Source: Hericium rajendrae (lineage: Eukaryota > Basidiomycota > Agaricomycetes > Russulales > Hericiaceae). From it: DNA of 64,000 nucleotides. Where the stretch lies: the NCBI GenBank assembly GCA_033439255.1, contig CM065879.1, positions 2,460,501 to 2,524,500 on the forward strand, written 5' to 3'. Shown in pieces: positions 1,974 to 64,000 of the stretch. Each line of letters begins with the position of its first letter. The stretch's first letter is position 1. Both the position numbers and the translations under genes were made by a program. The notes under the pieces are model-generated. The model was not told the DNA's origin. It did not search any database and saw nothing but the letters and a program-made list of their open reading frames with translations.

Positions 1974-1981
1974 CTTATATA
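1974..1981 (-). promoter_or_regulatory. TATA box of copy B leader unit
   Basis: TATATAAG on the minus strand, followed by GGCATGCACGACGTGCC-type sequence shared with the other copies. It directs transcription toward end A. Confidence 0.6.
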
Positions 1982-4202: not shown

Positions 4203-4217
4203 TTCTCCCCCTAACTG
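4203..4217 (-). other. Polypurine tract next to the 3' LTR
   Basis: On the minus strand AGTTAGGGGGAGAA directly abuts the LTR start. This is where a retrotransposon plus-strand primer is expected. Confidence 0.65.
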
Positions 4218-7670: not shown

Positions 7671-7690
7671 ACTCCCCCTAACTGAAAAAT
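7671..7690 (-). repeat. Second copy of the polypurine-tract sequence
   Basis: TCCCCCTAACTGAAAA here repeats the sequence at 4205-4220 beside the LTR. The two copies bracket the antisense cargo, one just after pol and one at the LTR. Confidence 0.6.
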
Positions 7691-11381: not shown

Positions 11382-11770
11382 ATCATCGAAGCGCGAAAAT
11401 CCTCCTTTGCCGCGAGCGTATACTGAATGTCAGTGCGCGGGTGGGTGGGGATCGTGGCTGCTTCGCCGGTGTTTGGGTCGAAGATGGTGATGGTCTGTGT
11501 TTCATTGCGGTAGCTGCGCACGACTGACTCGGTAAGCACATCGAAGGGGCGTCCGAGTAGGATATCGTAGGCGGGCGACCGGAGGACGTGTATTTGGAGG
11601 TAGAGAACAATGTTGCCGAAGACTGCAGGCACGTTTCGGCACAGGCCCAGCGAGTCATCAAGTTCGCCGTTGGCGGATTGCATAGTGAGGATAATCGTGG
11701 GGTCATACGACAGGCCTAAGGTGTAGCAAACGCTCTCTGACATGGAGATGACCTGAGAACCTGGGTCCAA
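11378..11770 (-). CDS. Ty3/Gypsy retropepsin-like protease
   Basis: The frame opens on a DPGSQ segment (DSGS/DTGA-type aspartic protease motif region) and contains YDILLGRPFD. That matches the ILG-R-F/W signature of retropepsins in basidiomycete Gypsy elements. It lies between gag and RT. Confidence 0.75.
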   Translation of the reverse strand: MDPGSQVISMSESVCYTLGLSYDPTIILTMQSANGELDDSLGLCRNVPAVFGNIVLYLQIHVLRSPAYDILLGRPFDVLTESVVRSYRNETQTITIFDPNTGEAATIPTHPRTDIQYTLAAKEDFRASMI

Positions 11771-12672
11771 GATGCACTCGACCGGTTCTTGATGATCTAT
11801 GAGTGCTGCAATAGAACGCAGCGCCGCAGACTCGCGCGAGACGATCAGGGGTTTAGGCTTTTCGTCCGGGCGGAGTTGCTTGAGGTACTGCTCGTAGGGA
11901 TCCGGGAGGACGACAGCACCTTCCGGCGGCTCGGCGCACTGGTGCGAAAGGATAGATACTCGTGGATGAGGGGGCGAGGCCGGTGCTGCACACGGTCGCC
12001 TTCGGCGGGCTCGCTCGCGAACTGGATACCTGCAGCGAGCTCTACTTGACGCGCTGGCGAGGCCAGCTCCTCGACTGCATCTTCACCTGGCAGCTCGGAG
12101 AGCAGGTCAGTCTCGTTAAGGACTTCCAACAGGTTCTGTCCCGCCACCGGACGCGTGTGACGCCGTGAGACTGCCTCCTTGTATTTCGCGCGTAGTGCAG
12201 GAGCCAGGGACCAGAGCTCGCCCTGGGTGACCTCGATAGGGAGGGACATGGCGCGCGCGAACACGCGGTCCAGCACGTCTTGCCCGACTGAGTCTTGCGC
12301 ACGACGGGTTGGGCCCGTCTCTTCGACTACTTCGATCACTGGGACTTGCGCGGGCCTTGCACCGTCGCGGGCTCTGGCAAATGGGTGGACGGGACCATCA
12401 GGGTCGCGGAGGTCGTCGCGCACCGCAGGTTGAGATAGAAGGTGGGGGGACGTCTCGTTCCGGGCCTGGGGCCGGTGAAGCTTGCGGAGGGGGCAGGGAC
12501 GCCCGCGGCGGCTCTGGTTCGTCCTCGATGGTCGGGCGCGGCGGCGCACGGGGCAATCGTGGAGGGGCTGGTTGGCGGGCAGGCTCTTCCATCCTGCGAG
12601 CTCGTTCCAACGCCCGGTTAGCTCTATCACGGCTGGCCGCGGCATTGGGTGGGGGCACAACCGAGGCGTCCT

Positions 12673-14397
12673 TCAACTGGTATAACCGCCGTAGCTCGCC
12701 CTCCAGGCTCTCGATCCGCGCGTCTGTGGTGAGCTGGTACAACCCTGCCTGGACCTGGGTATAGGGGGACGCGGTGGTCTGAGCGTATGCCGGCGCGACG
12801 CGATAGCCGTAGGGAGGGAGCCCGCCCGCGGCGAACTTGCCTGGTGGGTACCGGCTACACCCATCATAAGCTGACCCGTGGCTCGCTGATTGGGGTTCAT
12901 ACGGTGGTATTCGTCGATCCGTTCGGCCATAGTCGCGCCTGGGGGTCCTTGCGGGAGCCAAGCCCCAGAGGGTAAGACCATCTTGCCTTGGACGTCCTTC
13001 TTGCACTTGCCGGCGGCCATGTATTCCCGGGCTGTCATGCATTCGCGCACGAAATGCCCCACGTTCCCACAGAAGTTGCACTGATCCGACCCCATTCGCC
13101 CGCGCATTGGCGCGCCTTGATTACCTCCGGAGACCATCGGTTGACGCGACGGCTGCTGCGCGCTCCTCAAGAGGATATCGGCCAGTGACGCTAACTGCTC
13201 ACTCTTAATCTGGATAGTCGTCCCTGAGCCTGCATCGGCGGTTGATGACGACGCGGTGGCTTGAGTTGACGACGGTCCACGCAGGTACGGGTCGGGGGTG
13301 ATGGCAGTGCCATACATGCACCACTCTGCGGCCCTATAGACGTCGTTGATCGGGTGCGGATCGTCGGGATGGTGATCAGGCTTGGTAAGAGCAAGGCGGT
13401 CCTCTACCCGCAGGCGAAGACGTTCGGGGAGCGCCGCCAAAAACCAGCGTTGTTCCTCGATATCGGAGATGCGGTTCTTGCCTTTCAGGTAGCGCGTGAT
13501 GACCGTGAACTCGCGCGAGAACGCACCAAGTTCGCCGACGGAACTGAGGGTGGACTCGGCAGTTCGGTGGACGAGTGACTCCAAATCTTGACGCGAAAAG
13601 GTATTCTCCTTAGCCGAGCCCGGGTAGAGTTCGTGGATAGCTTTCTTGAATTCGTCCCAAGTGCCGGCGGCGTACTTGGCCTCGGACCGCCACAGCTCTT
13701 GTGCGTCAACGTCTGAGAGGAGACGGACCGCATGACTCTTTTTCTCCGCGTCATCTGCCACGGAGGAACGCTGAAAACAAAATTCGAGATCGAGGAAGTA
13801 ACGGCCCAGCTCGCGGGGGGAGTTGGTGTCGAACTTGGGAGCACCGCTCTCGCCGCGCATAGGCATGGAGGGGGGCGGCATGACTGGTTGGATACTTGGT
13901 GGCCTGGGGAAGGGGAAACGTGCAGGGGCTAGCGGGCTGTGTTGTTGAGTAGGAGAAGGGGGACGGGGGGTAGCAGGGAAAGTCGCCTGGTGCGGCGTTG
14001 TCCTAGGACCCGCGGTAGCAGAGGGGCCGGCAAGGGGTCGCGGCGCCGGAGTTGGCGATACGGGTGGAGTAGGAACGATGAAGGAACGCTCGAGCTCGGG
14101 AATTTCGAACTCTTCGTCGATGGGAGTAAGGGGACTAGTGGGAGTTGGAACCGGCGGGAAAGGTGACGGTAGGTCGGGGGAAACTTGCTGAGGGTCCTGA
14201 GTCGCAACACGGACTTCTTGTTCGAGGGTACGATCTGGATTCGACCGTGCGCTACTCCTAGTACGACGCGGCTCTATTTTGAGTATGGAACCCTCGCGGT
14301 GGGCTCCAAAATGATGTGTGGACCCTGGGAATGGAGGCGGCAGCCAAAACCAAAACCAACAGAGTACCGGGGGGTGCGAGGGGACCAAGTATCTCAA
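12673..14397 (-). CDS. Ty3/Gypsy Gag with CCHC zinc knuckle
   Basis: The frame has a Pro-rich N-part and a helical capsid-like core (FKKAIHELYPGSAKE, then RYLKGKNRISD). It also has a single CNFCGNVGHFVREC knuckle (C-x2-C-x4-H-x4-C). The open frame runs back into the LTR; the true start is probably just inside the internal region. Part of the LTR element; treated as a fossil. Confidence 0.85.
   Translation of the reverse strand: MRYLVPSHPPVLCWFWFWLPPPFPGSTHHFGAHREGSILKIEPRRTRSSARSNPDRTLEQEVRVATQDPQQVSPDLPSPFPPVPTPTSPLTPIDEEFEIPELERSFIVPTPPVSPTPAPRPLAGPSATAGPRTTPHQATFPATPRPPSPTQQHSPLAPARFPFPRPPSIQPVMPPPSMPMRGESGAPKFDTNSPRELGRYFLDLEFCFQRSSVADDAEKKSHAVRLLSDVDAQELWRSEAKYAAGTWDEFKKAIHELYPGSAKENTFSRQDLESLVHRTAESTLSSVGELGAFSREFTVITRYLKGKNRISDIEEQRWFLAALPERLRLRVEDRLALTKPDHHPDDPHPINDVYRAAEWCMYGTAITPDPYLRGPSSTQATASSSTADAGSGTTIQIKSEQLASLADILLRSAQQPSRQPMVSGGNQGAPMRGRMGSDQCNFCGNVGHFVRECMTAREYMAAGKCKKDVQGKMVLPSGAWLPQGPPGATMAERIDEYHRMNPNQRATGQLMMGVAGTHQASSPRAGSLPTAIASRRHTLRPPRPPIPRSRQGCTSSPQTRGSRAWRASYGGYTS
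14290..14309 (-). other. Likely primer-binding site region
   Basis: Directly inside the 5' LTR the minus strand reads on from the LTR terminus CATCA into TTTTGGAGCCCACC. TGG close to the LTR edge is usual for tRNA primer-binding sites. Which tRNA is unknown. Confidence 0.35.
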
Positions 14398-15331
14398 GAG
14401 GGGAGCGCCGAGACGTGTAGCTGACGGGTGATCGTACTACGGGTAGGGGAGCAAGGCCGCGGAGGGCGAGCTTGCTGCGCGCGGGCGACTTCCGACACGG
14501 CTCTGCTAGGGACGATGACGGTACGACAAGACTCACGGGTCTTAGGTGATACGGCTTGTAGATAACGGCGCGGCGACGAGTACGACGAATATGATGAGCG
14601 ACACGAGAAAGTGAGAAGAGCTACGTCTGAGACGTGCTTAGAGACTGGGGTGAGAACGTCAAACGGCGGGCTTTGTGAGATCTGAGCTCTGAGGGGAAAA
14701 AGGCAGATTCCGTTCTGATTCTCTAAGTCAGTAGCTACGGTACAAATGGGCAAGGCCGCCTCTGGCGGCCCGGCGCGACTCCCTACGACAACCTCCCGCT
14801 GACCGACCCAATCTCCAATTCCTTCCTGATCCTGCCTGCTCCGGGTCCCTTGGCGAGTGGAGTCGTTGCGACTCGGCCCGTGCAGGGCAGAGGGCGTGCG
14901 CGTGGTACGAACGAATCAAAGGTGCCGCCTTACAACGTCGCCCGGGGCGTGCGTCGGGAACGGCGGGCACGTCGAGCTTGAATGGCTGGGATGACGTCAG
15001 TAGCGCACTGTCGCGGGCGCCGCTCGTGATCCGGGGGCGTGTGGGCGTTCGAGGGCGCGTTGATTGAGCCGGCTGGTTCTCTGGGCGCGCTTCTGTTCCT
15101 GTGCCGCTGACTCGTCCGGCCGGTTGATCTCCTGCCCGTTCGGTGCATCGGACCACGGGACGCCGGCTTTAGTCCGACCCGGTCGGTCCCGGACCCGTGG
15201 GGGCGCTTGTCCTGTGCGGGGAGCAACGTCGCGGTGGGCGGACTTGGTGCGGCTGAGGTGAAGTGAAGCGGGACGGGCAAGGAGGCGGGGAGTGGGCAAT
15301 GCCGTTGCAAGGCGCGCTAAAGGGCGCATCA
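14310..15331 (-). repeat. LTR (5' LTR in element sense)
   Basis: Partner of 3235-4202 with the same TG...CA ends. It carries the extra ~54 bp (about 14355-14410) absent from the other LTR. Confidence 0.9.
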
Positions 15332-16082
15332 CCGCGTCCGTCCCTCGCGGCTCGCGCGTGCCCCGCGGCCGTCTCTCCCGCCTCACGCACGAGACCGCCA
15401 CCCGCGCACCCTGCCCAACGTACGTACCTGCCGCAATACGGCGCCCAGCGTACGGGACTCCGCGCCTCGCGCATGGATCCTACGGTCCCGCATGAGCCCG
15501 CGACAGTTTCGCGCGCGGTCTCGGGCCCCGCGTTACCCGCGCGCAGGCCCGTTTTATTGTGCACGGGCCTGGGCATCGCGCCTCGCACGCAGAACTGCCG
15601 CGTCGTGCACATCGGCCGTGGCCTAGTGCGCGTGCGCACCTTGTCGCGCCCCGCGAGCGCGCATGCTGGCCCTGCCTCTGCACGCCACGCGTGACGTAGT
15701 ATACTTGGATGTACTTGTAGGAATGATGAATATAATTGACTTTGTACTGAAATCTTTTGTACCTACCTGACTTGACATAACAGTAGTAGCAATCATAGCT
15801 CACCTCTAAGTATGATAATGCTACATATTTCAAACTGCTACCTATGGAAGCTATGATAGCATCATATAGCTGGCACTACCAGCTATGGAAGCTCTCATAG
15901 CTCTCATAGCTCTACATAGCTGGATAAGCAAACTTCATAGCTCTGATAGTGCAATGATAGCACCTATAATCTAACCTGCAGCTATATGGAATTTACTTTT
16001 CTCAGATGAGGAGAAGAGTGAATGGCGAAAGACGGGAGATGGTAGTGGTAGGGAAGAGAGAGAGACAGCGCGTCACGCAGGC

Positions 16083-16090
16083 CTTATATA
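16083..16090 (-). promoter_or_regulatory. TATA box of copy A leader unit
   Basis: TATATAAG on the minus strand, with the same GGC-rich flank (GGCCTGCGTGACGCG) as the other copies. Confidence 0.6.
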
Positions 16091-16483
16091 CACGTGGCGA
16101 GCGGAGCGCCAAATGTGGCTGCCGAGACCGGGCCGGGCGGTGCCGAGCACTCACGTCAGAGGCTAAGTGCCAGATTTCTCTAAGTTCACTTTGTTGCCCA
16201 GTAGCTTATAGTAGCTTGGTTAGATATTCACCTCATATGATTTGATGTAATTAACAAATGCTAGCTGTCGTCTTTTTTTTTCAGAATTTAACGTGTTTTA
16301 TTTGATTTACTATAGCTCGAAACGTTCGAACTTGCGTGCGTTCAAGCACCGAAGTCGCGTCGAACTTCAATTTACAATTCTCATACCACCCTCCTCCCTC
16401 TTCATCGATCCTCCCTCCTTCCTGTCTTCAAACTCGTCAAATCGAACGCGGATGGATTTTTACGGGTCACAGAGGGGTCCCAG

Positions 16484-16559
16484 GTAAGTAAAATAACTAT
16501 TTATTGGCATGTTCCGTACTAACAAAGGGAGTATCGCTCGTTCTTGACGAGCGATACTC
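16484..16559 (+). other. Copy A conserved mini-intron plus hairpin
   Basis: The donor CAG|GTAAGT is at 16484, a TACTAAC branch site at 16517-16523, and the acceptor GGGAG at 16531, giving 48 bp. It runs straight into GAGTATCGCTCGT, a 5-base loop and its perfect complement (16529-16559). Confidence 0.65.
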
Positions 16560-16830
16560 TCGTTCTTCGACGTCCAACACGCCTCACTCACCCCATCTCC
16601 AACCTCCCCACCCGCATCGCCTTCCCTCCGCCATGTCACCAGCGCCCGCCCCGCCTCTGAAACACGTCGCCAGCAGCCTCGACGCCCTGCGCGTCACCAA
16701 CAGCTGCGCACGGACCCGGCCACGTGCGCGCAAGCTCGATAGCTCGCGCGTCGACCCCCATGCCTACACCCGCGCCCTCAACCTCTCATTCTCGCCCTCC
16801 CCATTCACGGACGATGGCATCCGCATCGTC

Positions 16831-16858
16831 ATGCCTCGTTGCCGTGGCAACAGGGCAT
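16831..16858. promoter_or_regulatory. RFX/Crt1-like X-box palindrome, copy A
   Basis: Core GTTGCC-GT-GGCAAC. The outer arms differ from copy B (ATGCCTC instead of GAGTCTC) but still pair with the right side (GGGCAT). Outer pairing is thus kept while sequence drifts. Confidence 0.6.
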
Positions 16859-18028
16859 TCACCTTCGTTCGCCCGGCCTCCCACGCCCTCGTATCCCCTC
16901 AACGACCCGCGCACGGAAGGCCGAGGATCCGATTGCGCGGGCACGACCGCGCCAGCTCTTGCATGCAACTGCGCGAGCATGCGGGTCTACGAGCGCGGGG
17001 ACGACCAAGTCGCGGCCACGCACGACCTGTGCATCTTGCCCTGCCCTGCGCATGACACGTGCATCGACGCCCAGCCTCGACATGGTCGCTCGCCCGCGCA
17101 CGTACGTGACCATACGTGCCATCTCATGCGGGCCACGTGCGACGGCGCAGGCCATGCCAACTCGCGCGCGGTTCCACGCCCCACCCCCACACGACTGCCT
17201 CGCCTCGCGCACAGCCACGCCAGCTTGCACGCGGCCATGCACGATTCGTCCACCCGTCCCCCCCCATGCAAAACAGGTGTGCCGACGCCCCGCCTCGCAT
17301 ACGGCTGCCTCCCCCGCGCACGCGCGTGAGACCACTCACAACAGCCAGCTCATGCGGGGCCACACATGACCGCGCCAGCTCACGCACGGCATCACGCACG
17401 GGCCCCATACCTCCGCTAGGGCCACGCACGAGCCACGTGTCCCACCGCCCCGCACATGGCTTCGCCCGACCCCATCATACCGCGCACGGCACCATGACCC
17501 CCACAGGACTGCCTCACGCCGCGCACGGCCGCGCAAGCTCGCGCGCGGCCACGCGGGATCTGCGCACCCCACCGCACCATCTGCTCATGTACGCCATGGC
17601 CGGGCCTGTCTGTGCGTGCAAGCAGACGGTGATGCGCAAGGTTGCAAGGGCACAAGGTCTCTCCCAGGACCTTTGTATACTATTTAGATAGTGTCATATT
17701 TCGTAGTTTCCTTGTTTGTTGTAGTCTAGCCCTGCATATAATAAAATTTTGACTTAAATGTCTTCACTATCTAGGTGGCTTATCATAAGGACTATAGTAG
17801 CCATAGCAGTCATAGTTTTCCTTGGTAAGTATCATGGTCCTATGTATATGACATCCTTAGCTATAGAGGTTATGGCACTCTATGTATCTAATACTCCATG
17901 CTATAGAGGCTATCATAGGCCTCATAGCTTTACATAGCTGGATAGTTCAACTTCATAGCTCTCATAGCTCACTGATAGGGCCCATAATAGGACTTGCTGC
18001 TATATAAAAATCCTTTTTCTCAGATGCA

Positions 18029-19330: not shown

Positions 19331-19642
19331 TAAAACTGCAACAACACCAATAAGTACATAACTGGATATGCAAAAATAATATACATGATGTGATGGTTCA
19401 TGAGTAAGAAGGTAGTGCAATGTACAATAATATAGATAGCAGATAGACAGCAGATGCAAGTAGGACTGGTCCGCAAGGATAAATGGTGCCGGATAGGTAG
19501 CTCGAGGAAGGAGCAAAGACAGTGGGGTAGGTACATCTAATAACCGGGGAATAAATGATACAACAGTGACCATCCAGATAAAAACAGGGCGTGAAGGATA
19601 GGCATCGCAGCCTGGGCGCGTAAGGGAGAGAACCAGTGGGGG
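19331..19642. other. Spacer downstream of atg1
   Basis: No gene recognised. It probably includes the atg1 3' untranslated region. Confidence 0.5.
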
Positions 19643-22600
19643 CTATGGCCTGCTGTCCTGGCTCTGGGTGCGCAGTTGCGCCATGCCCTCTGCGTCCCAC
19701 GGCGCCGGTATGCGCGGGACATCGTCCAGATTCTTGTCGCACGCGCATCGCGCAGGCGCTCGCGGTTCGGCATGCCCATGCGTGCGCGACAGCGCACCAG
19801 GCGGAGTTTCGTGCGCTTGATCCCTGCGGCGCCGTCAGCATCCCAATGAACAAGAGGAGGAGGAAATGCGAACATGTGGCGATGGTCTCACGGTCCTCCT
19901 CCATGAACGGGTTTCCCTTCTGCAGGAGGTCGTCCTGCAGCGCGTACAGGCACCAAAGCGATTCCTCGTAGAGCTTCTCGCATTCATCTGGACTCTTGTG
20001 TTGGTCAAGTAGCTCCTTACGCGCAGCATTGCGGCTCTACATGCACATCCTGCGTCAGCATTGGTGAAGCAAAACAGAGGGAGGTTATTGACCAAGGTCA
20101 GCGCACGATTGTACACGAGCTCGTCGACCCAGGTGCTAGGTCCGGTGTACTGCGCCGGCAACCACGTCTTCACTAGCGCCGCACGATCATTGCACGTAAT
20201 AAAATGGTCCTTGAACCAGCTCAGCGCTACCAAACCAAGCATATCAGCATTGCCCCCGCGCCGCGGAGAAGCCAGACCCACCGTCGTCGAAGCCGCGGCT
20301 CATGACGAACCCGCCGGGGTTGCGCATCTCCGCATGCTCCTGGAAGCGGCGTAGCTCCTCGATGCCCTTCTGCGCGAACGACATCACGAGCATGTAGATC
20401 GCGACGCACGTCACCGCGTTGTACTCCGCTTCGACGTCCGCGTGCTGCCGACGCCGCGCGAGCTTCTCAGGCTCGCCCTCGCGCGGCGCGAACTTCGCCG
20501 GGTCCGGCAGGGGCTCTGTCCGACCATTTCAGCATCATAAGAGAGGGCACGAGCAGGGAAAAACGCACTCTGCGGCACCGCCTTCACGTATTCGTACATC
20601 TCGTCCGCCCAGCGCGTGATCACGTCCGTCTTCTGCGCGAGCTGCTCGAGTCCCTCGAAGAACAGATCTTCAACTGGATCGCGCTCCTCCGTGCTCAGGA
20701 TCCGCGGCGACGGCAGCGGCGACGGGCCGCGCGACGGTGGCGAGCGCCCCACGATACCACCGCCAGATGGCGACGGCGATGCTGAGCCGAAGAGTTTCCG
20801 CGATGCGATGTTGATGGCACGCGCGAGCGGATTCGAGAGCGAAGAGGCCCGGGAGGGCGTCGGCGGGGTAGTTGCGGGTGCAGACGGGTTTGGCGGGGGC
20901 GGGAAGGTCGGCGGGGACGTGCCTGAGGGTGCAGGCGACATGGCCTGCGGAGGTGCGGAAGTTGCCGATCTGCGGGAGTTGGAGCGCTTCGGCATGTTTG
21001 TGTCGACGGAGAGCGGGGGTACGCGACGGTCGAGGAGGGGCCGCCGACGTGCGGCGTTGATTTCTAAGGGTGCGCGTCGTGAGTAAGTTCGGACGAAGAG
21101 GACCGAGAAGACAAAAATGTACCGTCTACTGTGCGATTGAACTCCACCGCCTGTGTATCGCCGACCAGGACATACTCTCTCCGTAGTAGCCCGTCCTCCT
21201 CGGTCTCCCCGGGAATAATAGAGCCCTCTGTCGAAAGCGGTCGATGAGCAAACGGAGGGGCAGTGACATTACGTGGTATGTTAGGGGATGTCTTCGCATG
21301 AGTTGCGGAGGCTAACGATGGTCTCTGAGGTTTTGCAGAAGAGAAAGTCGCCGGTACAATGGCCGGCACGGGTGGAGGGGGCGCATCACGCGTCGGCGTC
21401 GGAAGTGCCAGTGGTGGTGGTGGTGCGCTAGAAAGCAAACTGATGTGAGCAGTTGCACACAAAAGTGCACATGTAGATACATACTCGGTCTGTCCCGTTT
21501 CTTCTCTCCGTCTGAAATGGAACTTGCTCGGCGGGATCATAGCGCCCATATCAAGGACCTCCGGTGGAACATGTATATGATGCTCAGGCATCTCACCCGC
21601 ATCTCCGCCGTCCCCTTCAGCCTCCGCCTCCGCCTCGCCCTCCGGCTGTCCTTGTTCACGCGGCCGTGGAAACTTTGAATTCACCATCGCGGTGCTCTTG
21701 AAAAATTCCTCGAAGCTCGCACGCTGCGCTGGAGTCTTCCGCAGCAGCATACGGACAAGAATCTTGATGTCCTCTGGAACGGGCTGCGTCGAGGTTGAGG
21801 TCGTGGGATCCTCATCGGGGAAGCGCACGCCGCGCGACTGGTCGATCTTCCTGAGCAGGTCCAACGGATTCCCAGCGCGGTACGGCGGTCGGCCAACGGA
21901 CATCTCATACAGAACAGCGCCGACGGACCAGAGATCCGCTTTCGCGTCGTATTTCTGGTGCATGAGGATCTCAGGCGCCATGTATAGTCTACGGGTGTCA
22001 ATTGAGTAAATAACATGCGCATTTATAGGACTTACGGAGAGCCACAGAGCGTCTCGGCCATAGAGGCATTGGGTAGGATTCGTGCGAAGCCAAAGTCAGC
22101 GACTTTGAGTATTGGAACACCTAGTGGGTGACCGCGCCTAAGCTCTTCGGGAGAAGCAGGCTTCAGAAGGAGGTTCTGACACGAGACGTAAGACGCAAGT
22201 CGCGGGAGACGGAGAACTGCACATACCTGAGGTTTAATATCCCGATGGATGAGGTGATGTTGTCGAAGGAATTTGAGTGCACGAGCTACACAATTATTAG
22301 TGTCAATACGCACAAACGCCTGCACTCTACGCACCTAACTGTCTCAGAAAGCTTCTTACAACAATCTCCGCAAGCCCCACCCGCGGATGGGGATAGTACT
22401 GTGGTGCTGCGCCTGGAGATGGGACATACTCAAGAGTCTCGACACGCCCCCGCTTCTTAAGGTAGCCTGCGAGATCGCCGCCGGAACAGTATTCCATGAT
22501 AAGGTAAATATTGCGTTCAGCGCGCTGAAAAAGGAGTCAGCAGCTGTCAATCGAAAGGGACCGCATGCCCTCGTGGAGGGCTGTGGAGCCTCGCTGTGGT

Positions 22601-22986
22601 AAAGTAACGCGGACACATGCCCAGAGGGCACGGCAGCAGCTGAAGCGATACTTACAATGATATCAATCAGCTTGGTAATATGCCTATGCGACATACTCTT
22701 GAGAATGTCGATCTCGGACTGCAGATTCTCGAAGAGCTTCGGAGATAGATTTAACCTGCTCACGGTCTTGATGGCGACTTCCTGTCGCGTCCCCTGCCGT
22801 GCGGTGTTAGCAGGGGAAAAGATGGAATGCAATTGAGCATACCTCATGGTATCCCTTGTACACGATAGCAAAACTACCTTTCCCCAGCTCGCCCACAAAG
22901 ACATAAGGCTTGATCTCCTCATCCTCCACCCACCTATGGGAGGCGGCAGAAGCCCCGCGCTGCACGGGAGCAGCTGAAGGTGCCAT
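19643..22986 (-). CDS. atg1: Autophagy-initiating serine/threonine kinase Atg1 (ULK)
   Basis: Atg1 starts autophagosome formation with Atg13 and Atg17 at the phagophore assembly site. The start is at 22984-22986. The first exon (22843-22986) gives the Gly loop [11 protein letters not shown]. Exon 2 (22656-22793) has VAIK with the ATP lysine. Later exons give [26 protein letters not shown] and the APE block ([21 protein letters not shown]). After the kinase comes a long disordered Pro/Ser-rich middle with REYVLVG...[10 protein letters not shown], the block before the C-terminal region in fungal Atg1. The Atg13-binding helical end is recognisable ([45 protein letters not shown]). The ending seems to change frame near 19735-19742: one frame stops making sense while another reads [18 protein letters not shown] to the TAG at 19643-19645, the expected terminus. 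At least seven introns are needed. I did not fix every junction. Confidence 0.9.
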
Positions 22987-23612
22987 TGCGTGCGTGAGCG
23001 TTGCGTACCAAGGGAAGAGCGTGTAATGGGATAAGGGGAGTGCGTAGAAGATTAATAGAAGAGTGGCAGGGAGGGTGGAAGCTGATAGAGTAGATAACTA
23101 AGAAGGCAAGAATCGTGATTAGAAACAAATGTAAACTTCGATACTAGAGTATATACTCACTGAGTAAGACCACCGCTGACTCACTACGACTGGCCTTGCA
23201 TGCGCATGAGAGCAAGACAAAGGGGGACGTTCAGGTTGCTGGGTGGTGAGACAGTCGAGGCTCGAGGACGGAGACGACCTGAACGGGCGCTTACTCGCGT
23301 CATCACCAGCGCCTCGGCCCGTGGGAATCCCGTTTCGTCGACTTGTCGAGACGTTCAGCTCACAGAACATATTCACTACTGCCTGGGATTTCCAGCATTT
23401 GCATTATCATCGCATAGAATTAACTCCCTTAATTTTTATCCTCGCAGTGCAAGCTGAACGCTGCCTGTCGATTCTCGAACGACTTGGTATGATGCGCATC
23501 ACGTGAATCGGCGGTTAGGCGCCGTTCATCCTGCCCGACACGTTCCCTGCCTCCTCATCGAAACCGCAACGACGACGACCAGTGCCGTCTCATCCCCGTT
23601 CATGAGCTCACG
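22987..23612. promoter_or_regulatory. Shared upstream region of atg1 and the Tag1-like gene
   Basis: 626 bp separate the two divergent start codons. No clear TATA box. I found no other gene here. Confidence 0.5.
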
Positions 23613-42172: not shown

Positions 42173-43471
42173 ATTGGTACCCACATTCCTGCATCTCAAC
42201 AACTGTTGTCATGGAATTTTGCCCTGAAATTTTGTATGTGGGTAGCTATATATATGAAGCCCTTGTATGTGAAATTTTAGCAAAAACGGCAGTCCCGTTC
42301 TTTCTCGCCAAGGCAATCATTGTTGTGGGGGGGAGAGAAGAAGAAGATAGCCCAAACAGTTCAAACAGGAATGTTGGGGTCATTTGGGTGCATACATATT
42401 GTTCATACATGCTATATTATGATGCTACAGCAATATGGACCTGCCAAGAGCAATGCCTGAATTGTTTGGAGCACATTTGTCTAAAATTGACCCCCTCCAG
42501 GAGAAGACCTCTACCACTCATTATCCTAAGGTCCAATCTTGCTCAAACATGCATGGTATGTGCATGGTATATGCAGTGCTGTACATGCAAAGTTTCAGAA
42601 TCATAGCTGCAACATTCAAATTATTTGAGCTGCATCTTGTTTTAGGAGATACATACTTTGATTGGCTTCAAATAATTCAGATATTCTCTCTGCTGCATAA
42701 CTGATGAATGAATCATATTCATGTACATTAAATATACATGCTCACAAAGTTTCATGATCATACAACATGTTTTCAAATTGTTTGCCCTCTACCATCTCTT
42801 CGAGGAGTCAACTTTTGCTGCACGTTTGTGTGTGGTGCAATTGCACTCAAACTTATAGTATATGTGCTTTGCATTTGTTAGATGAGATGTGAAAAGTTTC
42901 AGAATCATAGCTGCAATATTCAAATTATTTGAGCTACATCTTTTTTTAGGGGATACATATGTTGATTAGCTTCAAATAATTTAGATATTCTCTCTGCTGC
43001 ATAACTGATGAATGAATCATGTTTGTGTACATTCAATATACATACTCACAAAACTTCGTGGTCATACCATACATTTTCAAATTGTCTGCCCTCTGTCACC
43101 TTCTCAAGAACATGACTGACTTTTGTCACGTATTTGTGTGTGGTCCGATCACCCTCAAACTTATTTGATATGTGCTTTTCATATGTTAGATGAGGCATGG
43201 AAAGTTTCAAAGTCATAGCCACAATATTCAAATTATTTGAGCTGCATCTTGTTTCAGAGGATACATACTTCGATTAGCTTCAAATAATTCAGATATTACT
43301 TTTTCTGTATAACTTGTCAATGCATAGTGTTTATCTACATTCAATATACATCCTCACAGAGTTTTGAGAGTATATGATATAATCTCACATTGTTTGCCCT
43401 TTGCCACCTCCTTGAGGAGGTAACTTTTGCTGTGCATTTGTGTGTGGTCCAATCATGCTCAAACTTACCAT
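42173..43471. repeat. 1.3 kb direct duplication, first copy
   Basis: Matches 51607-52905 over 1299 bp with no net length change and, by eye, only a few percent mismatch. It starts ATTGGTACCCACATTCC and ends within ~305 bp tandem units. Short open frames in it are interrupted and alike in both copies, so I do not call a gene. Confidence 0.85.
42725..43471. repeat. ~305 bp tandem repeats, block 1
   Basis: Three units anchored by CAYNCTCACARAG at about 42731, 43037 and 43350. Each unit has the CAAATTGTTTGCCCTCT and CAAATTATTTGAGCT blocks. Confidence 0.75.
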
Positions 43472-48137: not shown

Positions 48138-49320
48138 CATCAGGGAAATTGGAATTCTACATAGCTCAGTGTTAAGTTATATGTCCTATTAGAGTGCTAT
48201 GAGGTCTATGTAATTATCCTTCTCAACTATGTAGGGCTATGAGGCCTATCATAGCTTTCATAGCAGTAGTCAGATGCTATATAATGCTATATATGTCTGA
48301 GGGACAGCTATGACTGCTATATAATCTCATAGGCTTGCTATGGTCACTATGGCATCTACAGCAAGTCTGCTAGACTGCAGAGTCATCCAGTCACATATCA
48401 CATATCTTATCTCTCTAACTCAAGGACTTAGCAAAATTTTGTTTATTTAATTGCTATACTAACCGAAGGGACATAAAACTAAGTACATGTGATCAATGCG
48501 CCCGCACAGCTGAAGAGGCTGTTTGCAAGTGACAAGGGCCGTGCGTGGAATGGCGCATGCGTGTGTGCGTGGATACGGGTATGCTAGTCGTAGTCGGGGG
48601 CCATGCGGGGCCGTGCGCACGCAGTCGGAGGCGGGCGCGGCATTCAGGCGTACCCACAGGCAGTCGGGCACGGGCGCGCAGTCGACAGTGGATGCGGGCA
48701 CGTGAGAGCGAGCCCGAGCATGCTGTCGGACACCGCTTACGCACAGGGCGGAGGCATTGTCATGCCTGGTGCCTGGGCACGCGAAGGCGGAGTCGAGGGC
48801 TTGCGTACGCTGTGCGCTGATGCACTCTTGGCAGCGTGGTGCTCTGGGGCCGTGTGCGGACTGCACGATGTCGGTGTCGCCGACGGCATTGTCGACGGGA
48901 TGGGATGGGGTGGCTCCTGGGCGTGGACGCCAGGAGGTCGTAGTCGCCAGCAGGCGTAGCCCCGAGTGCACAGGCGGGGCCGTGCATGGCTGCCCGCGTG
49001 CTGGCAGGACCGTGCATGGCCGTCCGCGTGCTGGCAGGACCGTGCGCTGCTGCCCATGCTGTGCGTGTCTGCATGTGCGCGCTGGCGCGGTCCTCCGCGG
49101 CTGTGTGCATTGCAGTCACCAGCATGCGTGGCCCCGCTCGTGCAAGCAGGGCCGTGTGCACGCAACCGCTAGCACGCGTAGGCAAGGTCGCCCGCCGGAC
49201 TGAGCATGGGGATATGGGTATGGGCGTGGCTTGAGCTTGAAGCGGAGGCGGGGCGCGGGCATGAGCATGGTGATGTGGTGGAGGGCGAGCAGGGGCGAGC
49301 GCGCGTCGTACAATGTTTGG

Positions 49321-49352
49321 TCGAGTCTCGTTGCTGTAGCAACGAGACTCGA
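49321..49352. promoter_or_regulatory. RFX/Crt1-like X-box palindrome, copy C
   Basis: TCGAGTCTCGTTGCT, GT, then the exact complement: 15-bp arms with no mismatch. The core GTTGCT-GT-AGCAAC differs from the X-box consensus by one paired change. Confidence 0.55.
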
Positions 49353-49456
49353 CGACGGCGTCGACGACGGCGTGGTCGAGGGGAGCGGATGCGGTGGGCT
49401 CGTGGGTGTGGGTGAGGGTTGTCGAGGGCGAGCGGGGGTCCAAGAGATGACACACG

Positions 49457-49532
49457 AGTATCGCTCGTTGGCAACGAGCGATACTTGTTTGATTAGCACG
49501 AAAAGACCAAAAAAAAACATGTGTTCACTTAC
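49457..49532 (-). other. Copy C hairpin and mini-intron
   Basis: On the minus strand TAG|GTAAGTGA (from 49532) leads to a GCTAAT branch site and the acceptor CAAG at 49484, 49 bp in all. Directly after comes AGTATCGCTCGTT, loop of 3, complement (49457-49485). Confidence 0.65.
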
Positions 49533-49932
49533 CTAGACCCCCTGAGTGCCCTGCTAGCTGTCCTGACCGTCGAGCGATGTCGTATCTTGCGTGTAGAGAG
49601 AGAGGAGAGAGACGAGGAGAGAGGGAGGGAGAGGTGGAGGTTGGGTGGAGGGAGTACTGGACGAAGAAACGCACCAAGTCGCGCGTCGAGTGCAGGACTC
49701 ATGCGGCTGGCGGTTTCGAGTTCAACAAATCAAATAAAATCTTTTAAAATACAAGAAAAACGGGGCACGTATGAATTCATTGATTCTACAAGATAAATGA
49801 GCTATATAGGTATCTACTACGATGTATGTCCTTGAGCAGTCACTCTAACTTACTGAAATCTAAATCAGTAGCCTCTGCCGCGCCATTCGGCAACTGCCGG
49901 CCAGCCACAATTTGGGCTCCGACGTGCTCGCA

Positions 49933-49940
49933 TATATAAG
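49933..49940 (+). promoter_or_regulatory. TATA box of copy C leader unit
   Basis: TATATAAG followed by GCATGCGCAACGCGCG and a pyrimidine-rich start region. Confidence 0.6.
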
Positions 49941-49964
49941 GCATGCGCAACGCGCGTCCTCTCT

Positions 49965-50203
49965 CTCTTCTCTACCACTACCATCTTCCGTCTTTTGGCG
50001 GTTTCTTCCTTTTCTCTTCCCGACTTTTTTTGTTCGGTAAGTTCTTATGTTGTATATTGTTAACTAATACTTATGCTTATATATTATCTTTATAGACTTT
50101 GAATATTTTCGCTTTTTCTTCTCTTTGGTAAGTCTTATTTATTATGTTCTTTCTTTCTATTGTTGACTTTTTAGGGTTATTTTCGCTTTTTATAGTCTTT
50201 GAG
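49965..50203 (+). other. Spliced leader of copy C with two tiny exons
   Basis: Exon 1 ends TTCG|GTAAGT at 50037. Exon 2 is 50096-50127 (32 bp) and exon 3 is 50175-50203 (29 bp). Both tiny exons contain ATTTTCGCTTTTT and are bounded by TAG and GTAAGT. There is no shared reading frame. A following intron could run to an acceptor outside or at the element edge. Confidence 0.6.
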
Positions 50204-50695
50204 GTAAGTTTTATGTTATGTCTTTTATCTAATATAGCTTGACTTATACTTGTAAATATGTATAGGCTTGTTAATTTTGTAGTATAATGTAGTACTCTTT
50301 TGTGTATTAGTACATCTAATGAATTATAATGTCTTTAAAAATTTCGATGTTTTGTTGATCTGAGAATTGTGTAAAATTTTGATTGTAGTCTGATTGTAGA
50401 TTAGATAGTATAAATAGCTTTCATTGCTTTTATAGATGTGTCAAATCTATCTTATGGACATAGCTTATATTAATGATATAGCTTCCATAGCTTTCATAGC
50501 TATATGTCCTATGATAGCTGCATAGTCAGCTATGATAGCTATGATAGCACTTCATAGCATCCCTCTTAAGCTCTATAGCCCTATATAGCATCTCTTCTTG
50601 GCTATATAGGCTATGGAGTAAAGGGCAATGCTATGGCCCTAGGAACTCTATATAACTCTGATAGAGCTATGTAGCATCTCTACATTTCTCTGATG

Positions 50696-51606: not shown

Positions 51607-52905
51607 ATTGGTACCCACATTCCTGCATCTCAACAACTGTTGTCATGGAATTTTGCCCTGAAATTTTGTATGTGGGTAGCTATATATATGAAGCCCTTGT
51701 ATATGAAATTTTAGCAAAAACGGCAATCCCATTCTTTCTCGGCAAGGCAATCATTATTGTGGGGGGGAGAGGAGAAGAAGATGACCCAAACAATTCAGGC
51801 AGGAATGTTGGGGTCATTTGGGTGCATACATATTGTTTATACATGCTATATTATGATGCTACAGCAATATGGACCTGCCAAGAGCAATGTCTGAATTGTT
51901 TGGAGCACATTTGTCTAAAATTGGCCCCCTCCAGGAGAAGACCTCTACCACTCATTATCCTAAGGTCCAATCTTGCTCAAACATGCATGGTATGTGCATG
52001 GTATATGCAGTGCTGTACATGCAAAGTTTCAGAATCATAGCTACAACATTCAAATTATTTGAGCTGCATCTTGTTTTAGGAGATACATACTTTGATTGGC
52101 TTCAAATAATTCAGATATTCTCTCTGCTGCATAACTGATGAATGAATCATATTCATGTACATTAAATATACATGCTCACAAAGTTTCATGATCATACAAC
52201 ATGTTTTCAAATTGTTTGCCCTCTACCATCTCTTCGAGGAGTCAACTTTTGCTGCACATTTGTGTGTGGTTCGATCGCACTCAAACTTATAGTATATGTA
52301 CTTTGCATTTGTTAGATGAGATGTGAAAAGTTTCAGAATCATAGCTGCAATATTCAAATTATTTGAGCTACATCTTTTTTTAGGGGATACATATGTTGAT
52401 TAGCTTCAAATAATTCAGATATTCTCTCTGCTGCATAACTGATGAATGAATCATGTTTGTGTACATTCAATATACATACTCACAAAACTTTGTGGTCATA
52501 CCATACATTTTCAAATTGTCTGCCCTCTGTCACCTTCTCAAGAACATGACTGACTTTTGCCACATATTTGTGTGTGGTCTGATCACCCTCAAACTTATTT
52601 GATATGTGCTTTTCATATGTTAGATGAGGCATGGAAAGTTTCAAAGTCATAGTCACAATATTCAAATTATTTGAGCTGCATCTTGTTTCAGAGGATACAT
52701 ACTTCAATTAGCTTCAAATAATTCAGATATTACTTTTCCTGTATAACTTGTCAATGCATAGTGTTTATCTACATTCAATATACATCCTCACAGAGTTTTG
52801 AGAGTATATGATATAATCTCACATTGTTTGCCCTTTGCCACCTCCTTGAGGAGGTAACTTTTGCCGTGCATTTGTGTGTGGTCCGATCATGCTCAAACTT
52901 ACCAT
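51607..52905. repeat. 1.3 kb direct duplication, second copy
   Basis: Partner of 42173-43471, offset 9434 bp. Its left edge cuts the unknown gene. Confidence 0.85.
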
Positions 52906-58014: not shown

Positions 58015-58860
58015 CTACAATTCGCTGTCCATTTGCTCATCGAAACACTCATCCAGTCCCTTCTGCGCTCCCTTCTGCATTGCCACTAGTGCCAATTCTG
58101 TGTCCTTCAAGTTTCCCAATGACTCCCATAGCTGTCGTGCAACATCACCAGTAAACCAATGGTCCTCTCCAAGGCGGCAAAGCACACCCTGTAGGCTCTC
58201 CTTGACGGCAAGTCTGAGATCATCAGGCACTGCAGCCAGCCGGAGCATGTCTGCGTCCGAAACGATGGGTGCAACGATCGTTGCTGGCATGTTGCCATGA
58301 GCTTTGCTAGATTCGATCAAGGCAGACGTCATCCGCTGTGACCCATGCACTGTCGGCATAGGTATTTGATCATTTACATCCTGATTTTTGCTCTTTTGCA
58401 CCTTCTTTCGAGAGTTAGAGGATGCAAAAGCAAGACACAGACACGCACTGGCTGAGAAGCACTTATTCTCCCGCTATTCTCCCTTTTTTTCACAGCCTTG
58501 ACAGGTTGCGACGCTCTTTACATCATCTTTTCTGCTGAAACATTCTCAAAGTCACAATCTCTTATGTGGGTCAGCCAAACTAACAACTCTGAGGACAATG
58601 ATGCCTTACATTGTAAGCACTTCTGTCTCAGTGGTGGGTATTTCTATCCAGCTGGCAAGGCCTATACCCTGCGCCCTAGATGCGAGGTATATCCCATCAA
58701 AAATGAGGCAGCACAGCCACAGATTGTCTGAATCGCTGAAGGCATCTACGCTTCGGCCAAGAACCAGGTTCTCAATGCCCAGAGTAAGGAGTTTCGCCAC
58801 CTCCATCGCTGCCTCACTGAGTTGATCAACCTCTCGAATGGTCAGCACCTTACCCAACAC
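58015..58860 (-). pseudogene. Unknown gene fragment cut by copy E
   Basis: Two open pieces on the minus strand. 58606-58860 reads REVDQLSEAAMEVAKLLTLG and IENLVLGRSVDAFSDSDNLW. 58015-58401 reads MLRLAAVPDDLRLAVKESLQ and DHWFTGDVARQLWESLG, after a Lys-rich SRKKVQKSKNQD. Stops lie between them (about 58400-58605). They may be one old gene. I do not recognise it. The upper edge abuts copy E near 58850. Confidence 0.4.
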
Positions 58861-60786
58861 TATCTAACTAGTCAATGGAGGTCCTGAGTAGACCTCATGC
58901 CCTTCCAATCCTTGTGCATTGTGTGTGCGCAGGAACAGGCATGTGCTCACCCAGCCATGGCGTACATGGGCAGCATGGCACAGCGGGATGCGCAGATCCC
59001 GCGTGGCCCTACACTGCATGGCCGTGCACCATGTGAGGCAGTGTGAGATGTCATGTGGGGATCGTGGGGCCATGCGCAACATGATGTGGTCATGCGAAGC
59101 TGTCTGCGGATGGGGCATCGATGGGCAGGATGGGATATGCGGATCATGCGTGGCCATGCGCGAGCTGGCGTGGCCATGCACCATCGTGCGCGGCCCTGCA
59201 TGAGCTGGTGCGGTCATGCGCGCCATACCATATGTGCACGGGTCGGGGTGACAATGTAGGAGGCAGGGCATCAGCGCACGTGTTGTGCACGAGGCAAGGT
59301 GGGGTGCCCGAGTCATGTGTGGCTGTGTACAAGCTTGCGTGGCCGTGTATGAGCTTGCATGGCTGTGCGCGGAGGGAGGCAGTCATTTGAGGAGCGTACA
59401 TCTGAAAAAATGGTATTTTATATAGCTGCAGGTTAAGTCATGGGTGCTATTATTGAGCTATGAGAGCTATGTAGTTTGCTTATCCAGCTATGTAGAGCTA
59501 TGAGAGCTTCCATAGCTTCCATAGCTATTGGTGTCAGTTATATAGTCTTACTATAGCTTTCATAGCCAGCAGTTTGAAATATATAGTACTATCATACTTA
59601 GTAAGGTGAGCTATGAATACTATTAGTACTATTAGTACTATGTCAAGTCACCCAGGTACTTAGATGCAAAATATTTAAAGTCAAAATTACTTATATTCAG
59701 TATAATTCTACTACAGAACAAGTACACTACAAGTACAAATACCGCAGGCATGCACGGCATGTACAGGTAGGGCCGCGCACAGGGACAAGTGCACTGATGG
59801 AGTGTGACAAGGTGCACACATCCATGAGGCGCGGCGCGGCGTGGCAATCGTGGACAATGCGGCAGTCAGGTGTGAAGAGCGGCAGGCCCGTGCAAGAGGC
59901 GCACGGGGGGGAGTGAGGGACGGCAAGATATCGGTGGGTGTTAGGTGCCGCATTCAGGGCAGGGGCGCGCGCGCGAGGTGTGGAGGCCAGGCATGGGGTG
60001 TCGAAGGCGGCGCGAGGCAGGGGCTGGCAACGGGCCCATGTGCAAGGCACGGGAGGTGAGCATGCGGGGCAGGCGCAACGTGGCAGAGCCCATGCGCGGC
60101 GTGGCAGGCCCACGCCGGAGGCGAGGTGCTGGGGACGTGCAATGCGCGGCGGGCATGTGCGAGATGTCGGCAGGCTGCGCAAGGCCCGCGCGTGACTCGC
60201 GGGGTGGCGCAAGGCACACAGTGGGCGCACAAGGCCCGTGGGGTGTGCGCGAGGCTCCTCGTTCGTGGCTCCAGTCGTGCGTGTGCTGACCTGACCGTAC
60301 ACAAGGGCGCGGGCATGGTCGCGGGCCGTGTCCATCCGTTCGTGCACTGGTGCGGACGTGCGGGGCTGCCCGTGCACCTATGAGGCCGTGCGCGGGCAAA
60401 TCGGGTGCACTGGCAGCCGTATGCAGGCATTGCAGCAATGCACGGTGCCGGTGATGTGTCGTGTGTGGCGAGGGCGCGTGGTGGAGTAGGCCCAGAGGTC
60501 ACGTCGCAAGACCTAGGATAGTGGTGAGATGGGGAATGTGCTACTACATGCTGGCAGCTAACTACTCGAATGATGACTAAGCATCAGGGAAACTCCCGCA
60601 GATCACGTGCTCTATGGCAGTAGGGACCCCCTTGGTCCCTACTCCAGCGGATGGCGACGAGATGGGGCGGGGTGTGGACGGGCAGCGACAGGGAGACGGG
60701 GACGGGGATGGAGTGAGCAGGACGGTGGGCGCGGGCTGTTGGAGCCACACAGTGATGCGCAGGAGGCAGAGCGAGGCACGCTGAAC

Positions 60787-60814
60787 GAGTCTCATTGTCG
60801 TGGCAACGAGACTT
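60787..60814. promoter_or_regulatory. RFX/Crt1-like X-box palindrome, copy D
   Basis: ATTGTC-GT-GGCAAC core: the right half-site is intact and the left has two changes. Outer arms GAGTCTC/GAGACT are kept. Confidence 0.45.
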
Positions 60815-60935
60815 GATGACATCGTCGTCTGCGTTGTCGAGGGAGTGGGGCAGGTAGGATGTGGTGAGCGTTGGCGCGGAGTATCGTAACGTGTCGTGCA
60901 GAGGTGGAGGCGATTGGCCTGAAGGCAGAGAAAAC

Positions 60936-61014
60936 GAGTATCACTCGTGCAGAGCATGAGCGATACTCATTTTATTAGCACGATACAAAAATAGAAAAGA
61001 CCATGCATACTTAC
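60936..61014 (-). other. Copy D hairpin and mini-intron
   Basis: Minus strand: CAG|GTAAGTAT from 61014, GCTAAT branch site, acceptor ATGAG at 60966 (49 bp), then an imperfect hairpin TATCGCTCATGC/GCACGAGTGATA (60936-60968). Confidence 0.6.
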
Positions 61015-61410
61015 CTGAAAGCCCTCAGCCCAGTTCTAAGCCCTCCTGACCGTGAGGCGACGCGAAGCGTCGAGTGTGTGGAGAGGGAGGTACGGGGTTG
61101 GAGACGAGAGAGGAGGGAGTGATGAGGTTGAAAGCACAAGTCGCGCTTCAGCCACAGGACTCGACTTGCGCGGTTGAGTTCTTTTGAGCAGAACAAATTG
61201 AATAAATCAATTTTAAATCAGAAAAAAAGACTGGTGTTACAGAATGTACATAGGCCAACATAACATGAGAAATGATCCTAGATACTGTACCGTAGGCCAC
61301 TGACCAGTGACAACAACTTACTCAGATCTGGCACTTAGCCTCTGTTGCAAAGCCCGGCAACCTTCGGCCCGGCGCTCGGCAGCCACGTTTCGGGCCCCGC
61401 TCGCAACGCC

Positions 61411-61418
61411 TATATAAG
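61411..61418 (+). promoter_or_regulatory. TATA box of copy D leader unit
   Basis: TATATAAG followed by GCATGCACGACGCGC, as in the other copies. Confidence 0.6.
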
Positions 61419-62833
61419 GCATGCACGACGCGCATTGCCTCTTGCTCTTGAACCCCCACTATCCCTTGCCACATTGATGCATTTGTCGTCGTTGTTTCTC
61501 GCTCGCCGTCGTTTGCTTGCTCCTCATTGTCGTTTGCTCGCTCCTCGTCATCATTTGCTCGCTCCTCATCGTTGTTTGATTACTCGTCATCATTATTCTC
61601 TTCGTTGTTAAGGTAAGTTCTCATTCTTAATTATCTTATAACGTATATACTAATGTCTTTATACTTATTACAGTACTATTGTAGTCTTAATGGGTAAATT
61701 TTATTATATCTTATACTAATGTCTTTAAATTGTCTTGTAGATTTTCGCTTTTTTGTTAGTTTGGTGAGTCTTCATGTGTTATCTTTATTATCTTCTAATA
61801 GTCATGTCTTTTCTTATTTATATTTATCTTATCTTATATTTTGTTATCTAATCTAATCTAATCTATTTCTATGAAAAATAAATAGTTTGTATTAGATATT
61901 TTTATAGTTGTTTGTATAGTTTGATTAGTTTGTATTATTGCTATATAATGTTTAATAAGATACAATTGACTTACTTCTATGGTTAGTTTTATTGTGCTAT
62001 AATATTTTTATTTTATATGTCAAATTTTAAAATAATTTAGAGAGATGAACTATAGTGTAAAAAGTTGACATAGCCTTGAGAATCTGAGATAACATAAATA
62101 GTATTCATATAGTCTATGGTATAAATAGTATATATATTATGTATAGTTAGCATAGCTTGTATAGCTATTTTATACTATGATATCTATACCTTATAGTAAG
62201 GTAGCTATGATAGCTATGATAGCTCTCTATAGCTTTCTTATTTGGCTCTATAGCTCTATATAGATGAGCCTTAAGCTATATAGAGGTATGAAGAAAAGGA
62301 GACAGCTATGGAGCTATTAGAACTATGTAGTCAATATAGTCATATATAGCTCTAGCAATTTTCTCAGATGTACACGGACTCGTGCTGTCATGCGGGCCCT
62401 GTTCGTGTGCACAGAGTGAGGTAGTCGTGAGCCGCGGGATGCACAGGATGGGACGGGGTGTGCCAGTCTTGCGTGACCCTACACGCACTCATGTGGACCC
62501 GCATGGACCTGCGTGGTCATGTGCTTGCATGTGAGAGCTGGCGCAGATGGTACCCGTGCCATTCGGGCATGCGAGCATGTATGCATGCAAGTCGGAGCCT
62601 CGCGCAAGTGGGCACCATGTGCTGCCATGCGCGTGCTGGCTGGGCCATTCGCGGGCGTACGCCTAGCCACATGTCGTGGCCCGAGTGTGTTGTCGATGGC
62701 ACGAAGGTGATGGTGGGCAGACAGATGAGGGCCTTGTGAGGGCCTTGTGAGATGATGGGCCTGCACGAACCTGTTGAGGACGTGCGGGATTTGTTGAGGC
62801 GATACAAGGGCAGGAGGCCGGGGGAACGACGTG

Positions 62834-62865
62834 TCGCACCTCATTGCCATGGCAACGAGGCACGA
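62834..62865. promoter_or_regulatory. RFX/Crt1-like X-box palindrome, copy E
   Basis: TTGCC-AT-GGCAA core, one base from the classic GTTGCC-AT-GGCAAC. The outer arms TCGCACCTC/GAGGCACGA show a changed but still partly paired sequence. Confidence 0.55.
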
Positions 62866-62984
62866 CAACGTGAACACGGACAGTGTTGTCAGGGCGATGG
62901 GACTGCGACGGGCTCATGGATGTGGGTGCGGGGTGTTGAAGGTGATGGGGACATGGTGCGTGCAGTTGCAAGAATGAAAGCACA

Positions 62985-63058
62985 AGTATCGCTCGGTGAA
63001 CGAGCGATACTCGCTGTGTTAGTATAAGAAACGAATGAAAGAGAGTTTTTTTACTTAC
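62985..63058 (-). other. Copy E hairpin and mini-intron
   Basis: Minus strand: TAG|GTAAGTAA from 63058, TACTAAC branch site, acceptor GCGAG at 63010 (49 bp), then AGTATCGCTCG, 5-base loop and its perfect complement (62985-63011). Confidence 0.65.
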
Positions 63059-63438
63059 CTATTAGCCTCTCAAGCTGTCCACTAAGCCTTCCCGAGTCTT
63101 GAAGATGCCATGTGTATGGAGAGAGACAGAGACGAAGGAGGAGATGGAGGGAGTGTTGCAAAGACACAAGTCACGCAACGACTTCAGCCACAGCAGCATT
63201 CGACTCTCATGTTTAGCGGTTTCGACTCTAACAAATCAAATAAAATCCATTTAATTCACAAAAAATGTGAGAAGATATAGCACACCGGTAGAAATATAAT
63301 GAATGGACCATCTATGTAATTACTGTACAACACACTTGTAGGTATCAAAATCCACTTAGTAGAATCTAACGGCCAGCCTCTGGCACGATGCCCGGCCTGG
63401 TCTCGGCAAGCTACATTTGACACTCCGATTGCCACATC

Positions 63439-63446
63439 TATATAAG
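63439..63446 (+). promoter_or_regulatory. TATA box of copy E leader unit
   Basis: TATATAAG followed by ATATGCACGATGTGC. Confidence 0.55.
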
Positions 63447-64000
63447 ATATGCACGATGTGCTGTCTCTCTCTCTTCCCTACCACTACCATCCCTCGTTTT
63501 TCGTCGCTCTCTCTTCTTCTGCTTCAACTTTTTAATGTTCGGTAAGTTTTATATTGTTGCTATATTATTTTATTGTTCACTAACCCTACTGTTCTTTGTA
63601 GACTTTTATATCTTTGCTTTATTATCTTAAGTAAGTCTTATGTTTTTCTGTATCTGTATCTTGTATACTAATTTGTTGACTTTGCCTTTAGATTATTTTT
63701 GCTTTTTCTTGTCTGTGGAGTAAGTCTTATCTTATCTTTTTTTGTCTATGTTTTATCTTTAAGTTCTATCTTATCTTTAAGTTCTATCTTATCTTTAAGT
63801 TCTATCTTATCTTATCTTTGTATCTTATCTTATCTTTGTATGTTTTGTTGTCTTATCTTGAAGTGTTGATCTTTACAGTGTATCATAGATGTGTAGTGTT
63901 TGTAGCTTTGTACTAAATGTGCTGTAATTTAATATTGTTTGAAATATAATGCTTTTAAATTTTCGATGTTTTAAATGTTATAGATGCAACAAGATTCAAA

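Follow-up and report, generated by a model that had tools for sequence, protein, structure and literature searches.

An X-box-type palindrome conserved in five copies of a PlavakaB-like, apparently non-autonomous transposon family of Hericium rajendrae

What, if anything, reads the X-box-type palindrome at positions 49320-49353 of this DNA, and why does it recur nearby? The two arms of the palindrome (49320-49335 and 49338-49353) are 16 nt each, 100% complementary and 2 nt apart; its core, GTTGCTGTAGCAAC, lies at 49330-49343. Palindromes of this kind are beyond chance in the window (the whole 64-kb stretch of DNA that was analysed). Exact arms of at least 12 nt with a loop of at most 7 nt occur in 11 registers, a count that takes in other palindromes of the window too, and the longest arm is 16 nt; 20 Markov shuffles combined gave a single 12-nt arm. 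A scan of the whole window for GTTGCCNNGGCAAC with at most 2 mismatches gave 7 matches. Five of these are in copies of one repeated element (core starts 2817, 16838, 49330, 60794 and 62843), and the other two (2010 and 4980) lie outside the element copies. Shuffled windows held 2.35 matches on average and 2 of 100 reached at least 7, so the scan by itself is only mildly significant. In viral_contigs, a variable-loop palindrome pattern had 0 matches, as did a fixed 8-nt-loop pattern (no copy has such a loop); an X-box-plus-arm pattern matched 2 stretches with, by eye, no further element feature around them, and these were taken as chance. Rfam gave no match in the window at gathering scores.

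The repeated element forms a dispersed family with approximately 60-70% identity where alignable, as judged by self-comparison of the window. Five copies were seen (A to E), all within this one window. Copy A (59399-62370, plus strand) is 2972 bp long, and copy D (48138-50695, plus strand) is 2558 bp long with the ends CATCAGGGAAA...TTTCTCTGATG. Copy B (1094-16008, minus strand) measures 2818 bp without the Gypsy-type retroelement that splits it at 3235-15331; copy C (276-18026, minus strand) measures 2836 bp without the inserted B (18026-16009 plus 1093-276). Two copies are nested, A within E and B within C, and the interrupted sequence resumes beyond each insert. Copy E lies on the plus strand; to the left of A it covers at least 58857-59398, and the part to the right of A (62371-64000) runs off the window end. 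The elements have terminal inverted repeats, CATC(A/T)G...C(A/T)GATG, with a fuller left end of CATC(A/T)G(A/G)(A/G)AAA and its reverse complement at the opposite end. The four copies that have both their ends within the window are all flanked by 2-bp target duplications: TA/TA for A, CT/CT for B, TG/TG for C and TT/TT for D. An earlier sequence-only reading had described mobile copies, five in number, each with a two-fold palindrome at or near GTTGCC-NN-GGCAAC. The mobility is borne out by the inverted repeats, the target duplications and the two nested insertions; the five palindromes are indeed there, in five homologous element copies.

Several other features were observed in and around these copies. 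Short AGCTATGA/CATAGCT-type repeats crowd both element ends (276-1090, 50458-50695, 62132-62370 and 59399-59600); it is possible that these subterminal repeats are transposase-binding sites. The right arm of copy E at 63981-64000 ends in ..TATAGATGCAACAAGATTCAAA, possibly the start of an open reading frame that is missing from the shorter copies. The minus-strand insert in copy B at 3235-15331 is a Gypsy-type LTR retroelement with matches to a CCHC knuckle, aspartyl protease, reverse transcriptase, RNase H and an integrase zinc-binding domain; its terminal repeats (TGATGTG...GCATCA) are about 99.8% alike over 925 bp, and it is flanked by CCGC/CCGC. Direct repeats of 1.3 kb at 42173-43471 and 51607-52905 are 97.7% alike and consist of 304-308 bp tandem units; between them is an AT-rich stretch with plus-strand open reading frames, interrupted by copy D at 48138. 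Pieces of an ATG1-like kinase gene (a kinase match and two ATG1-like MIT matches) are found on the minus strand at 19401-23051. A CAP59 mannosyltransferase Pfam match in the window hints at a basidiomycete.

The X-box-type cores of the remaining copies are ATTGTCGTGGCAAC in A (60794-60807, plus strand), GTTGCCGTGGCAAC in B (2817-2830, minus strand), GTTGCCACGGCAAC in C (16838-16851, minus strand) and ATTGCCATGGCAAC in E (62843-62856, plus strand); those of B and C are given on the element strand. The core halves are ATTGTC/GGCAAC in A, GTTGCC/GGCAAC in B and C, GTTGCT/AGCAAC in D and ATTGCC/GGCAAC in E. The spacer between them is 2 nt in all five copies, with varying letters (GT, GT, AC, GT and AT). 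Outside the core, Watson-Crick pairs were counted by eye at 9 positions: 9 pair in D, 7 in A, 7 in E, 6 in B and 5 in C. The five sites are homologous by descent and consequently do not represent five independent origins.

The core is conserved better than its surroundings. Between copies, identity is 112/140 (80%) in the 14-bp core versus 114/180 (63%) in the outer arms, both figures being ungapped. With strict gaps, identity over the whole 32-bp site is 226/320 (71%, versus 44% shuffled). The first palindrome was aligned separately in B and C, which have extra sequence between their two palindromes. The adjacent 32-bp flanks, also aligned with strict gaps, are 182/344 (53%, shuffled 47%) and 175/335 (52%, shuffled 46%) identical; at 64-96 bp out, identity is 46% and 48%, versus 47% and 46% shuffled. 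The block GCAACGAG is invariant in all five copies and continues past the core on one side. The sequence-only reading had named drift of the core at the rate of its flanks as grounds for refutation; with the core at 80% and the flanks near shuffled values among five copies, the comparison did not refute it. It had also described an arm that keeps pairing with different bases. This holds for the core of D (CC/GG to CT/AG) and for the outer arms of C and E, in the copy letters used here, which need not match the earlier ones.

These figures bear on the possibility that the palindrome is a neutral leftover: an ancestral palindrome present in all copies, its symmetry due to arm-to-arm correction, otherwise decaying and without present function. 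The left half-site has been lost in A and E via changes of the C-to-T/G-to-A type, as such decay would produce. The TpG+CpA excess also fits decay by methylation: GC-rich arms of the copies show 1.34-1.74, host-like sequence 1.08. Palindrome correction could partly explain the contrast between core and flanks. However, the core is 80% identical and the flanks, at 46-53%, are near shuffled values; inheritance alone leaves the faster drift of the neighbouring sequence unexplained. A leftover without function is considered unlikely.

The palindrome is not the only conserved feature of the element interior. In the element direction, the first palindrome is followed by the second and then by an intron-like stretch that reads on the other strand; about 430 bp further comes the motif TATATAAG. 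The two palindromes are 134-373 bp apart, centre to centre. The second consists of a fixed 11-bp stem, AGT(A/G)TC(G/A)CTCG / (C/T)GAGCGA(T/C)ACT. In copy D it is found at 49457-49485 (AGTATCGCTCG - 7 nt - CGAGCGATACT). The other copies have it at 60937-60967 (A, loop of 9 nt, two stem positions changed), 2438-2463 (B, loop of 4 nt, one stem pair changed from A-T to G-C), 16530-16558 (C, loop of 7 nt) and 62985-63011 (E, loop of 5 nt). Its identity between copies is 230/302 (76%, shuffled 44%), with a frame that is off by two bases in two copies, versus 50-61% in its flanks (shuffled 43-50%). In each of the four complete copies, which measure from 2558 to 2972 bp, the centre of the second palindrome falls at 0.52 of the length; this constancy over four copies may be due to chance.

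On the leftward strand, all five copies have the series GTAAGT...CTAA(C/T)...AG over 47-49 nt, and the stem begins with the AG of this series. In copy D the stretch is 49 nt long (49484-49532, minus strand, coordinates by eye) and reads GTAAGT...GCTAATC...AG. The exact acceptor is not fixed, because the search pattern required AG at the start of the stem and because B and E have earlier AGs upstream of it. The TATA-box-like motif TATATAAG (49933-49940 in D, plus strand) is identical in the five copies. After it are short exon- and intron-like units (GGTAAGT...TAG), partly duplicated in tandem, at 50040-50240, 61600-61770 and 63540-63740; they resemble small exons and introns of a leader.

This arrangement allows a reading at the RNA level, in which both palindromes are stem-loops in the leader of a leftward transcript and the resemblance to an X-box is accidental; the second stem could then mask, or time the use of, a splice site at its AG. 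The two palindromes differ in this respect: the fixed spacer of the first speaks for a dimer site on DNA and is odd as an RNA loop, while the varying loop of the second speaks for a stem-loop and is unlike a dimer site. The intron-like series in five of five copies, leading into a stem that opens with AGT(A/G)TC, fits such a transcript, although the placement of the AG is partly by construction and B and E have other AGs upstream. Folding predictions retain the second stem in all five copies on both strands. The first palindrome forms at least partially in five of five copies rightward and in four of five leftward; it is the fold of copy C, on the strand that this reading needs, that lacks it.

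Covariation gives a mixed result for the same reading. In the first palindrome, 85.3% of 75 cells pair rightward (G-U included) and 90.7% leftward, the higher value being on the side of the supposed transcript. Four of 15 pairs are changed on both sides rightward, and four leftward. Its covariation score was reached by only 2 of 500 shuffles rightward and 5 of 500 leftward, in keeping with outer arms that tend to co-vary, but relatedness among the copies alone can yield such scores. The first palindrome is weak by two other measures: both-side changes as numerous were reached in 25 and 50 of 500 shuffles, and further pair types in 267 and 288 of 500. The second palindrome does not exceed shuffles in covariation (182/500 and 181/500); it is simply conserved, and its single double change, the altered stem pair in B, fits pairing. 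On balance, paired leader stem-loops with an accidental X-box resemblance are possible but rather doubtful. A more elaborate form joins the two levels. In it, a leftward RNA of the family, conserved, spliced and apparently without coding function, would begin its exon 2 with a stem-loop that includes the 3' splice site; a hairpin serving also as an X-box would come next. Such a control module would be structured RNA and DNA site at once, would sit at 52% of the length of each of the four complete copies, and would be kept by non-autonomous transposons that are otherwise almost unalignable. The probability of this combined module is judged to be low.

A leftward transcript could also be protein-coding, with the palindrome lying within an exon. 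Long open reading frames do cross the site (e.g. 254 aa in D), and one leftward frame gives a similar peptide across it in the five copies. There is, however, no third-position excess between the second palindrome and the site (28/56, 19/55 and 22/56 for D and A; 19/57, 18/56 and 21/56 for D and E; 23/61, 28/59 and 29/60 for A and E). In addition, gaps are mostly not multiples of three, and Pfam gave no match in the element open reading frames searched. A coding exon is considered very improbable.

The best explanation is a control site read by protein, with RFX as the best candidate reader; it is held tentatively, at somewhat less than an even chance. The palindrome would serve a PlavakaB-like, non-autonomous family as a conserved cis-element and belong to a central control region with a divergent arrangement. 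A host protein acting as a dimer, and dependent on the fixed 2-bp spacer, would most likely bind it in double-stranded DNA. That protein would be RFX, and it would tune transcription of the element; the TATA-box-like motif and the leftward intron-like stretch are both found beyond the second palindrome.

The RFX X-box has two inverted RGYAAC half-sites with a spacer of 0-3, and its core requires neither longer outer arms nor their pairing. Both halves fit RGYAAC in three of the five copies (B, C and D) and the right half fits in all five; the double change in D (CC/GG to CT/AG) remains within the consensus. On this match, RFX (Crt1/Rfx1 type) leads the named candidates as binder, a good though unproved choice. 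Several features count against it. Firstly, conservation of GCAACGAG extends beyond the core and the outer arms tend to pair with changed bases, neither of which RFX needs. Secondly, the left half-site is lost in A and E. Thirdly, the second palindrome separates the first from TATATAAG; the first lies several hundred bp from this rightward TATA motif and in what appears to be a transcribed leftward leader. Reading by RFX also omits the second palindrome, the adjoining intron-like stretch and the outer arms; the second conserved hairpin may be as important as the X-box-type site. A damage response, and control of neighbouring genes by the site, are speculation.

Published passages on RFX proteins in fungi count partly for and partly against the candidate. 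RFX genes are recorded in 44 of 51 fungi in a passage of PMC2873420, an RFX DNA-binding domain is listed among Auricularia transcripts in a part of PMC3953639, and an RFX4-related gene of Ustilago maydis is mentioned in an excerpt of PMC10532341. Counting against it, a table of basidiomycete regulators in PMC11134681, in which a Rhodotorula gene is entered for other factors, shows a dash for Rfx1. Within open-licence PubMed Central, no paper was found that pairs RFX or the X-box with transposons.

On either of the two main readings, DNA site or RNA structure, the site is conserved better than its neighbourhood. If RFX does bind, this would be a fungal DNA transposon with a ready-made switch for replication stress; stress-triggered activity of the element, and rewiring of nearby genes by its insertions, would then become testable. 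If the palindromes act as RNA, a structured RNA would be maintained in transposons that apparently encode no protein.

Comparison with known systems places the element and its site more closely. PlavakaB elements are DNA transposons of the CMCT group found in Agaricomycotina. Their target duplications are 2-3 bp and their termini CATCA..TGATG, according to the PlavakaB passages of PMC12730594. The copies described here share the 2-bp duplications (four of four with both ends in the window) and have CATC/GATG at eight of eight ends, exactly CATCA/TGATG at three; in contrast, five of the eight ends read CATCT/AGATG, and a transposase was not found. None appeared among the Pfam matches of 50 of the window's 208 open reading frames of at least 100 aa. 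This absence is expected for a non-autonomous derivative, and the copies are therefore filed as PlavakaB-like only: they look PlavakaB-like and non-autonomous, while membership is not proven. The PlavakaB passages of PMC12730594 make no mention of internal palindromes, and a search of open-licence PubMed Central for Plavaka together with "palindrom" returned only that paper, with one occurrence.

A retroelement LTR is ruled out by the inverted ends and the 2-bp duplications. Helitrons have no inverted repeats and no target duplication, and carry a hairpin at the 3' terminus. The copies resemble them in having a stem-loop followed by TTAG within about 12 nt (five of five), but they have inverted repeats and 2-bp duplications, the hairpin is central and the element extends more than 1 kb past it. 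A Helitron end is ruled out by the first three of these differences; the TTAG makes better sense as a branch-point-like CTAA on the reverse strand.

The site itself is most like the X-box of RFX and yeast Crt1: it has inverted RGYAAC halves and a 2-nt spacer, and the match is perfect in copies B, C and D. It differs in that the core is embedded in a longer palindrome with co-varying outer arms, and in that the element site is not known to lie near a transcription start. The nearest parallel for the proposed relationship is in yeast, where, according to a portion of PMC3002893, host Rfx1 affects Ty1 mobility; there too a fungal RFX protein influences the mobility of a transposon. In the same portion of PMC3002893, unlike the arrangement proposed here, the effect on Ty1 is ascribed to ribonucleotide reductase and recombination rather than to an X-box borne by the element.
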